Positions 21,713 to 27,503 of a DNA stretch of 62,118 bases are shown here, in pieces. The DNA comes from Anaeromyxobacter diazotrophicus. Its GTDB lineage: Bacteria > Myxococcota > Myxococcia > Myxococcales > Anaeromyxobacteraceae. The DNA is taken from contig NZ_BJTG01000015.1 of the NCBI RefSeq assembly GCF_013340205.1, positions 1 to 62,118 of the forward strand, in the 5' to 3' direction. The notes under the pieces were generated by a model. That model saw only the letters and a program-made list of their open reading frames with translations, was not told where the DNA came from and searched no databases. The position numbers were made by a program, and so were the translations under genes. Within the stretch, counting starts at the first letter, position 1, and the number at the start of each line of letters is the position of its first letter.

Positions 21713-21718
21713 CTCCCG

Positions 21719-21731
21719 ACCCAGAGTAGTT
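21719..21731 (+). repeat. ACCCAGAGTAGTT repeat, copy 1
   Basis: ACCCAGAGTAGTT with the GTAG core typical of REP elements. The following DNA can form only weak hairpins (CCGG-based). Confidence 0.6.
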
Positions 21732-21797
21732 TTGCAGGGGAAAGACCGGCTCTAGCTCCCCGGCTCTGGCTCCGTGTTTCGGTTGGTTCGCCGCCGC

Positions 21798-21810
21798 ACC
21801 CAGAGTAGTT
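21798..21810 (+). repeat. ACCCAGAGTAGTT repeat, copy 2
   Basis: ACCCAGAGTAGTT, followed by GGCACC; the next 6 bases differ by one from copy 3 at 27442 (GGCGCC). It lies 79 bp after copy 1. TGCC-GGC-GGCA just downstream is a small hairpin. Confidence 0.6.
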
Positions 21811-22043
21811 GGCACCGGAAGAACGCCTCTGCCGGCGGCATTCCGACTCATCCTGCGGCGCAGGCGTCGAGGGAACGCTCCAGGCACACGCGGTGGGGCA
21901 CTGACCGTCGGTCTCCGGGGGGTGGAGAGGCGCGCCGGCGTGGTCAGCTGGAGGCAACGAGGGACCTCCGAGGCACCAAGCTGCAGCGGCGCGGGACGGC
22001 CGCGCTCTCCAAGAATGAGGCGGACCGCGCGAACAGCTCGGGC

Positions 22044-22934
22044 CTAAGTCGCCGCGCACGGCGCGCCGTGCGCGACCCGCAACAGATAGGTGCCGGGTGG
22101 GAACAGGGCGGCGAAGTCTCCGGCGCGCCTCGCCCGCCAGGCTGCGCGGTACCGCTCGAGGAAACCGCGGAGTCGCTGGAGGGCCTCGATGCGTTTCCAC
22201 CTATCCCGCGCAGCGACGCGGGGGTTGAGCGTCCGCCGCGGCTCACGTTGCACGGCCCGCCTCCGGACCTCTTGTGCGAGCACGCGCTCGGCTCCGACCA
22301 CGCGCACGCCTGAGCTCTCGCAGGCTCCAGCGGCGGCTTCCGCCCGGCCGAGAGCCGCGGCGACCCGCTCGCGAAAGTCGGCGGGGGAATCGAATCCGGG
22401 CGGCGCGGTGAGCGTCAACTCCACGCTCTCCGGCATGCTCCCGTTCTCGCGGAAGAAGGTCTGCGGTCGCCGCACGGTGAGTGGCTGACCGCCGACGAGC
22501 TCGGGCGCAGACCAGAGCCCCGGCCAATCCCGGCCGCGGCGGACCAGGCCGGCCGCGACCGGGTTCGCCAACACGTAGGCGGTCTTGTCGACGACGTCGG
22601 CGGGCGAACCAAGGGCGACGGCGCTGTAGCTCGACGGAGCCCAGAACGCCTCCCACCGGCCGAGGGAGGCGTTGATGGCGCGCGCGACGAGGGAGTCGAG
22701 GTACTGCTCGAAGGCGGGGAGCCGCGCGCCGGGATCCGTGAGGATCAAATGGAAGTGGTTGGACAGCACGCAGTACGCGTGGATGTTCATGCCGAACCGG
22801 CCGGCTGCGACGGCGAGCACGTAAAGGAAGATGGCGTTGGTGATCTTGGACGGACGGAGCAGGAACTGACGCTGCGCGCAGCGACGCGTGATGAGATACG
22901 TGGTCCCGGGCAGAACCTGGCGGGGCGCGGTCAT
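22044..22934 (-). CDS. REP-associated tyrosine transposase (Y1_Tnp, HUH family)
   Basis: This 296-aa single-strand DNA endonuclease belongs to the RAYT group related to IS200/IS605 TnpA. The HUH motif is His60-Phe-His62 in CVLSNHFHLIL, and the conserved tyrosine segment is Tyr120 in YVLANPVAAGLV, very like the YIxLNPVRAGLV signature. RAYTs cleave REP DNA near a conserved GTAG. The start MTAPRQVLPGTTY at 22934 places the family core correctly; an in-frame ATG at 22994 would add 20 basic residues. About 150 residues follow the catalytic core and are probably DNA-binding. REP-like repeats lie on both sides (21719, 21798, 23009-23049). No TnpB is present, consistent with a RAYT rather than a full insertion sequence. 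Confidence 0.9.
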   Translation of the reverse strand: MTAPRQVLPGTTYLITRRCAQRQFLLRPSKITNAIFLYVLAVAAGRFGMNIHAYCVLSNHFHLILTDPGARLPAFEQYLDSLVARAINASLGRWEAFWAPSSYSAVALGSPADVVDKTAYVLANPVAAGLVRRGRDWPGLWSAPELVGGQPLTVRRPQTFFRENGSMPESVELTLTAPPGFDSPADFRERVAAALGRAEAAAGACESSGVRVVGAERVLAQEVRRRAVQREPRRTLNPRVAARDRWKRIEALQRLRGFLERYRAAWRARRAGDFAALFPPGTYLLRVAHGAPCAAT

Positions 22935-23008
22935 GGCTCGGTCGGAGAGCAACCGCCGCGCCGATGTCAAACCACGAGTTTTCTTGAGCCTCATTTCGGT
23001 CGCACGCT

Positions 23009-23049
23009 CCGCCCGGCGGACCACGTGTCCGCCAGGCGGTACTCTGGGT
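23009..23049 (-). repeat. REP-like element: ACCCAGAGTA plus 13-bp imperfect hairpin
   Basis: Read on the minus strand: ACCCAGAGTA (23049-23040), then arms 23039-23027 and 23021-23009 around a 5-base loop. The arms match at 12 of 13 positions, and the mismatch is a G-T-type pair. GTAC takes the place of GTAG. It lies between the transposase start and the DUF3761-type gene and is inverted relative to the copies at 21719 and 21798. Confidence 0.7.
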
Positions 23050-23062
23050 CGGGGCCCGGGCG

Positions 23063-23680
23063 CTATTTGGCCGTCGATCCGTCGAGCCACTCCGCCACGC
23101 CGCCGTGCCGCGAGCAGGCGCCGGAGTGACCCTTGGCGTGCGAATAGGTGCCGTCCTTGCACTTCGCGATCGCGCCCGTGGCATCGGTGTTGGCCGCGTT
23201 CGCGGGCGCCGCGGCGGGCCGGCGGGTCACGGCGGAGGGCGCGGCCGGGGTCGCAGGCGGCGCGCTCGGAGCCTGGACCTGGGCGGGCGCAGCGGGCGGC
23301 GCCGGCGGCGCCGCACCGGCCGCGGCGGGAGGCTGGCCGCCCGCGGCGGTGGCCTTCTTGTCCACGCCACCGTGCCCTCTGCAGGCGCCGCGGCCACCCG
23401 GTGCCGTCGTCCCGTCCTTGCAGATCACCGTCCTTGCGGCCGCGGCCCCGGCCGGCGCCGCGGTCGCGGCGGGCGCCGCCGCCCCCGCCTTCGACTCGGC
23501 CTTGCTCGCCTTCTTGTCGACGCCGCCATGGCCGCGGCACGCCCCCCGCCCACCCGGCGAGGTCGTCCCGTCCTTGCACGTGACGGTCGTGGCCGTCGCC
23601 GCCGCCTGCGCGACGGCCTCGGCCGGCGAGAGGAGGAGTCCAGCGAGCACCAGGCACAGCGAGCCGAAGAGCAGCCTCAT
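23063..23680 (-). CDS. Exported protein with three DUF3761-like repeats
   Basis: The 205-aa product has a signal peptide (MRLLFGSLCLVLAGLLLSPAEAVAQA). Three copies follow of a Cys-Lys-Asp-Gly-Thr ... Gly-Ala-Cys-x-x-His-Gly-Gly-Val unit, at about residues 34-54, 86-106 and 172-195. They are separated by Ala/Pro-rich linkers. The units match the DUF3761 pattern, usually present once in small exported proteins. Each unit has two Cys and one His and may form a disulfide or bind metal; this is inference. It is in the same direction as the transposase but separated by the REP-like element. Confidence 0.75.
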   Translation of the reverse strand: MRLLFGSLCLVLAGLLLSPAEAVAQAAATATTVTCKDGTTSPGGRGACRGHGGVDKKASKAESKAGAAAPAATAAPAGAAAARTVICKDGTTAPGGRGACRGHGGVDKKATAAGGQPPAAAGAAPPAPPAAPAQVQAPSAPPATPAAPSAVTRRPAAAPANAANTDATGAIAKCKDGTYSHAKGHSGACSRHGGVAEWLDGSTAK

Positions 23681-27441: not shown

Positions 27442-27503
27442 ACCCAGAGTAGTTGGCGCCTTACCGAGAGTAGTTCTTCTACCCTGGCCTTACCCAGAGT
27501 AAC
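27442..27503 (+). repeat. Cluster of three ACCCAGAGTA-type repeats
   Basis: ACCCAGAGTAGTT at 27442-27454, ACCGAGAGTAGTT at 27463-27475 and ACCCAGAGTAAC at 27492-27503, all in the same orientation, spaced 21 and 29 bp. They are the same family as the copies flanking the HUH transposase at 21.7-23.0 kb. The cluster lies downstream of rsfS. Confidence 0.65.

Follow-up and report, generated by a model that had tools for sequence, protein, structure and literature searches.

RAYT-like enzymes are usually treated as domesticated genes that serve REPs. In the RAYT/TnpAREP REPtron of the E. coli type (structure 4er8), these repeats have GT[AG]G at the foot of a hairpin. TIRYTs are RAYT-like genes that lie between terminal inverted repeats (TIRs), which also form dimers and clusters (Di Nocera et al. 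2013, PMC3733652; Quentin et al. 2018, PMC6006769). Most of them belong to subclass 2.1, which has no REPs (Quentin et al. 2018, PMC6006769). Neither paper mentions Anaeromyxobacter.

The locus analyzed here lies in a 62,118-nt stretch of DNA (the window) from the soil myxobacterium Anaeromyxobacter diazotrophicus. With the TIRYT/TIRtron systems it shares a RAYT-like HUH-Y transposase longer than canonical RAYTs, the class-2 signature Y---NP together with a RAYT-like HUH and a catalytic Tyr, flanking TIRs unrelated to GTAG REPs, and further TIRs elsewhere in the genome as singles, dimers, and clusters. However, the GGGGWSAS motif of some TIRs, which is not universal, is missing from the Anaeromyxobacter family TIR, and whereas subclass 2.1 has a C-terminal HTH-like domain, the Anaeromyxobacter transposase gave no HTH Pfam match at E≤1 and its C-terminal part is helical, with partly low confidence in the AlphaFold model. 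The REPtron shares the fold of the catalytic core, the HUH and Y...NP motifs, and the cognate short repeats, but the Anaeromyxobacter repeats have no conserved GTAG foot or obligatory palindrome, the gene unit appears to be mobile and TIR bounded, and the enzyme carries a C-terminal extension of about 130 residues. Elements of the IS200/IS605 type (TnpA-IS200) are similar in their Y1 HUH fold, in being discrete mobile units, and in that target duplication is not seen. They have a Y...Q motif instead of Y...NP and subterminal hairpins, whereas the Anaeromyxobacter element has TIRs as shared ends and 3′ ends without hairpin excess, and its 1.26-kb unit leaves no room for tnpB. Finally, short inverted pairs of the cognate repeat (87 to 146 bp) fold into hairpins as REPINs and MITEs do, but are palindromic mainly through two facing TIRs and are low in copy number. 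What is new here relative to the TIRYT papers is the exact mobile unit, the co-variation of TIR and enzyme, the derivatives in the lineage, and the conserved promoter-like box.

The transposase gene and its flanking repeats

The gene for a RAYT-like HUH (Y1) transposase, assigned by its conserved start, motifs, and fold, occupies positions 22044 to 22934 on the minus strand and encodes 296 amino acids between its Met codon at 22934 and its stop codon at 22044. This ATG, residue 21 of a 316-residue reading, was taken as the start on the basis of its conservation and the promoter spacing; the longest open frame (22044 to 23657, minus strand, 537 amino acids) runs past it. Numbered from this Met, the protein has the HFH motif at residues 60 to 62 and the Tyr120 that an earlier note on this DNA had given for a RAYT-type gene. 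The motifs are NH-x-H (H60-F-H62, codons 22757 to 22749, minus strand) and Y-x-x-x-NP (Y120-V-L-A-N124-P, with the codon of the predicted catalytic Tyr at 22577 to 22575, minus strand), and N59, H60, H62, Y120, N124, and P125 were invariant among 12 homologues. In a structure search, the closest solved structure was E. coli TnpAREP 4er8 (E=1e-7 for the AlphaFold core, which also matched IS200/IS605 transposases); this match and a 58-bit hit to NCBIfam REP_Tyr_transpos, below the model's 80-bit cutoff, support the RAYT-type identity. The Pfam Y1_Tnp score was under the gathering threshold, and the C-terminal part had no credible match among solved structures. The adjoining gene (23063 to 23680, minus strand) encodes a secreted-looking protein with three CKDGT..GRGACRGHGGV-type repeats.

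The gene is bounded by copies of a short repeat, ACCCAGAGTA. Two exact copies, at 21719 to 21728 and, as ACCCAGAGTA(GTT), at 21798 to 21807 (both plus strand), lie on its 3′ side, as had been noted before. An exact inverted copy forms the core of the 5′ TIR (23040 to 23049, minus strand). It runs into a hairpin (23009 to 23039, minus strand) of 13 pairs, 12 Watson-Crick and one G.T, with a 5-nt loop; thus, the earlier description of an inverted copy continuing into a 13-bp hairpin holds for the 5′ copy, to which the hairpin is limited. This hairpin is the locus form of conserved CGGAC, GTCCG, and CGGAC blocks. The conserved repeat reaches 4 nt further outward than the 10 bases noted earlier, giving CCCG-ACCCAGAGTA, with the outer CCCG at 23050 to 23053 (minus strand) on the 5′ side and at 21715 to 21718 next to the outer 3′ copy. 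The result is a perfect 14-bp inverted repeat (21715 to 21728 versus 23040 to 23053), and the whole element, CCCG-TIR to TIR-CGGG, spans 1,339 bp (21715 to 23053, minus strand), provided that it ends at the outer 3′ TIR.

A satellite array without an adjoining transposase, ACCCAGAGTA, ACCGAGAGTA, ACCCAGAGTA, lies at 27442 to 27501 (plus strand), with starts at 27442, 27463, and 27492; the copy at 27463 has one mismatch and the other two are exact. The array motif is missing downstream of the same gene in relatives. In total, the window holds five exact copies of ACCCAGAGTA, compared to none in 100 dinucleotide shuffles. The genome-wide count suggested by the earlier note gave 14 exact copies in 4.83 Mb compared to 0 for a reversed-pattern control, all of them at three transposase paralogues or in satellite arrays 4 to 5 kb off. 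With one mismatch allowed there was no excess (36+44 copies versus 42+38 for the control); therefore, the signal is the exact motif. There are two such arrays, each 4 to 5 kb from a paralogue: the one in the window and one on contig C5 at 432.67 to 432.74 kb. The three paralogues, on C15 (the window), C5, and C6, are old, with 71 to 73% identity, and the C6 paralogue has only a degraded 5′ TIR.

Distribution, discrete ends, and co-variation of repeat and enzyme

A homologue at E≤1e-20, our threshold for calling a genome transposase positive, is encoded in 17 of 24 family genomes. The degenerate repeat CCNACCSAGAGTNRTT was found in 14 of these 17 and in none of the seven negative genomes (Fisher P=3e-4), with no matches of its reversed control in the 24 genomes; in 123 other genomes of the class it had five scattered matches compared to two control matches. 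Thus, a cognate repeat family accompanies the RAYT-type gene, as had been proposed; the motif is in excess in its own genome (14 versus 0 copies) and is not equally frequent in relatives without the transposase. The largest transposase set, 16 homologue matches, was found in relative G004, whose lineage TIR, ACCGAGAGAAGTT, has 49 copies there, two in G020, one in G010, and none in the other 21 genomes. In G006 (L096, C1:2625900-2636600), two truncated transposase copies (∼119 amino acids) with TIR clusters are repeated at a distance of 3.26 kb, with a full copy nearby.

Eleven dispersed G004 copies, most of them on separate contigs and all with unrelated outer flanks, were compared in pairs. 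Homology started at CCCG-TIR, in most cases to within 5 nt, and in the five pairs whose 3′ spacer was alignable to the end, it stopped at TIR-CGGG, which delimits a unit of ∼1.26 kb. At the level of sequence, these alignments show that the TIRs are discrete ends of a unit, which has been multiplied as a whole in at least one relative. Because the copies are homologous from TIR to TIR and their flanks are unrelated, the element appears to have moved like an insertion sequence. An element-free counterpart was clean for one of the five G004 copies tested: for L080, both flanks follow each other in order in G003 at 77 to 78% identity, with about 140 nt and no element between them, which resolves the empty site to the locus and not to the base. 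The other four copies have rearranged flanks in relatives. For L085, the near flank aligns in relatives and the far flank lies kilobases away; for L077, L084, and L086, both flanks occur together in no relative examined. The flanks of the window's own copy lie apart in relatives, where only motif-free orthologous ends were found in place of an empty site. No target duplication was seen. One copy, L084 (G004 C113:74470-78390), lies just upstream of what by eye is an apparent cobalamin riboswitch leader.

The layout of the element is regular. Copies at the 5′ and 3′ sides both face inward in the window and at about 40 loci, and, with few exceptions, the start codon follows the 5′ copy at about 110 to 125 nt. 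The distance from the stop to the nearest 3′ TIR end has a median of 249 nt and is within 200 to 280 nt in 36 of 43 loci; about a quarter of loci have no recognizable 3′ TIR. The intervening 3′ spacer (21808 to 22043, minus strand, in the window) is conserved in length and not in sequence: most spacers (L075-L135) measure 240 to 259 nt although they are unalignable, and no conserved sequence was found in them across the family.

The TIR variant was matched at the two ends of a locus. In 90% of 39 loci, the two ends agreed in their first 8 TIR bases, compared to 38% after permutation (0 of 10,000 permutations reached 90%), and the match held also in genomes with paralogues bearing different TIRs (G017 and G023). 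When mapped on the transposase tree, the 9-base TIR label required 12 changes compared to a minimum of 23 in 200 shuffles, and the C/G at TIR position 4 required three compared to at least nine. Judged by these comparisons, the variant follows transposase phylogeny. A 50%-identical homologue has a related TIR, GAACCAGGATAGTTT, in the same place, and Myxococcaceae-like homologues of about 32% identity have a different one (GGTGTCAAAG...). The latter type of repeat flanks the ∼32%-identical RAYT-like genes of the same order (L197-L204), with TTGGCCCG-N5-TGCAT boxes upstream; these genes are possibly a separate TIRYT lineage.

Gene-less inverted TIR pairs of 87, 87, 92, 110, and 137 bp fold end to end and look like nonautonomous derivatives; more are apparent from the repeat coordinates. 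Direct arrays have 18- to 80-nt spacing and common, locus-specific left flanks (8.4 of 12 positions identical between neighbors versus 5.6 at random). These stand-alone arrays and inverted pairs occur where a genome has the transposase, and relatives that lack the enzyme lack them too. G001 and G002, which are related, have different arrays; at L169/L173 and L171/L208, CCCGACCCAGAGTCGTT variant arrays and inverted pairs differ between the two. Two candidate movements between these genomes were dismissed: an apparent absence of the motif (L170 versus L207) was actually a point mutation, and an apparent single-copy difference (L169 versus L173) was actually an array difference.

The promoter-like box and the putative control region

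GG-N10-GC is the signature of sigma-54 promoters. The aligned 5′ leaders show the TIR, then the CGGAC/GTCCG/CGGAC blocks at about 10-nt spacing, and then GGCACG-N4-TTGC. In the window, the sigma-54-like −24/−12 box, GGCGCGGCGGTTGC (22949 to 22962, minus strand), is a match to the consensus at 9 of 10 positions and ends 14 nt before the ATG. Across the family, a box with at least 8 of 10 positions was present in 57 of 58 loci, compared to 3% of control 60-mers, and in 56 of 58 the conserved protein started 12 to 16 nt after it; within TGGCACG-N4-TTGC, the GG was kept in 57 of 58 loci and the GC in 55 of 58. A box of this type is also found upstream of the 50%- and ∼32%-identical homologues, about 40 nt before the start in the latter. 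Of the 24 genomes, 23 encode rpoN; the one that does not is an incomplete assembly. The transposase gene is probably read from a sigma-54-type −24/−12 promoter just before its start codon. Given the spacing of box and start, such a promoter would produce a nearly leaderless mRNA, and it would make expression dependent on an enhancer-binding protein. In that case, the left end, with its TIR, CGGAC/GTCCG/CGGAC blocks, and promoter, would double as the control region. The idea that the transposase binds this box at both ends of the element was dismissed, as the best matches inside the 3′ ends were 6 to 8 of 10. Among the papers listed by our literature searches, we found no report of a sigma-54-driven transposase, nor of Anaeromyxobacter REPs.

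Competing explanations and biological meaning

The repeats had been read as REPs, that is, GTAG plus a palindrome, which would make the locus a REPtron of the canonical type, in which a domesticated RAYT goes with palindromic REPs tagged by GTAG, here with an unusually long head. The RAYT-type enzyme (REP_Tyr_transpos, 4er8) and, in the window, the GTAG-like tetranucleotide and good hairpin at the 5′ copy agree with this. However, the family consensus has CC(C/T)G-ACC(C/G)AGAG as its constant part, and the supposed REP tetranucleotide varies (GTAC, GTAA, GTTC, GAAG, and GTCG). Downstream of the repeat, the degree of structure slightly exceeded the background at 5′ copies (median z −0.6, P=9e-4), whereas 3′ copies and satellites showed no hairpin excess (P=0.74 and 0.39), so GTAG plus hairpin at every repeat was rejected. 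RNAalifold on the aligned 5′ leaders gave nothing substantial (−0.8 kcal/mol), and for this reason we make no claim of a conserved stem for the CGGAC/GTCCG blocks; Rfam gave no credible match. Moreover, repeat copies occur in direct arrays, and the repeats delimit a whole gene unit, which has moved. A canonical REPtron is therefore unlikely. The repeats are TIRs, not classic REP hairpins, and the 10-base head, taken earlier for an addition upstream of a REP, is the repeat itself, the TIR of a mobile unit.

It is also conceivable that a HUH gene that is domesticated and immobile uses the repeat as its regulatory operator, for example as a sigma-54 upstream activating site, and that the other copies are further binding sites. 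The fixed position of the repeat upstream of the start, the ∼10-nt spacing of the CGGAC blocks, and the promoter-like box would all fit, but there are inverted copies on the 3′ side of the gene as well, about 250 nt beyond the stop, inverted pairs without a gene exist, and the homology of the dispersed G004 copies ends at the TIRs, which makes an operator most improbable. Segmental duplication or homologous recombination, with the TIRs as passive hot spots, could account for the tandem gene-fragment copies in G006, G001, and G022 and for the array differences between G001 and G002. The 11 G004 copies, however, share nothing outside the TIRs, and G003 has one locus without the element; spread by this route seems very unlikely.

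We therefore favor, as the likely reading of the sequence data, an IS-like element of the TIRYT/TIRtron kind: a mobile HUH-tyrosine transposase bounded by cognate, inward-facing TIRs, CC(C/T)G-ACC(C/G)AGAG-T/A, with a probable sigma-54-type promoter. In this element, the transposase would recognize the TIR, with the HUH motif binding metal and Tyr120 nicking single-stranded DNA at or near the CCCG border, and would mobilize the whole element. In trans, it may also mobilize TIR pairs (MITE/REPIN-like) and single or tandem TIRs.

A broader reading, which we offer tentatively and consider somewhat doubtful, is of a mobile HUH/Y1 lineage that uses linear TIRs rather than hairpins as its recognized ends, with TIR-enzyme co-evolution and sigma-54 control of the transposase across myxobacteria, its movement gated by an enhancer-binding protein and, through it, by physiology or development. 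A clade with a moved gene and its ends, gene-less derivatives, and TIRs that change together with the enzyme is a natural series for mapping which part of an HUH transposase reads which base. The clade may also show how an insertion sequence is linked to a REP system by an intermediate step. Control of transposition through a sigma-54-type promoter of the transposase gene would, if true, be unusual.
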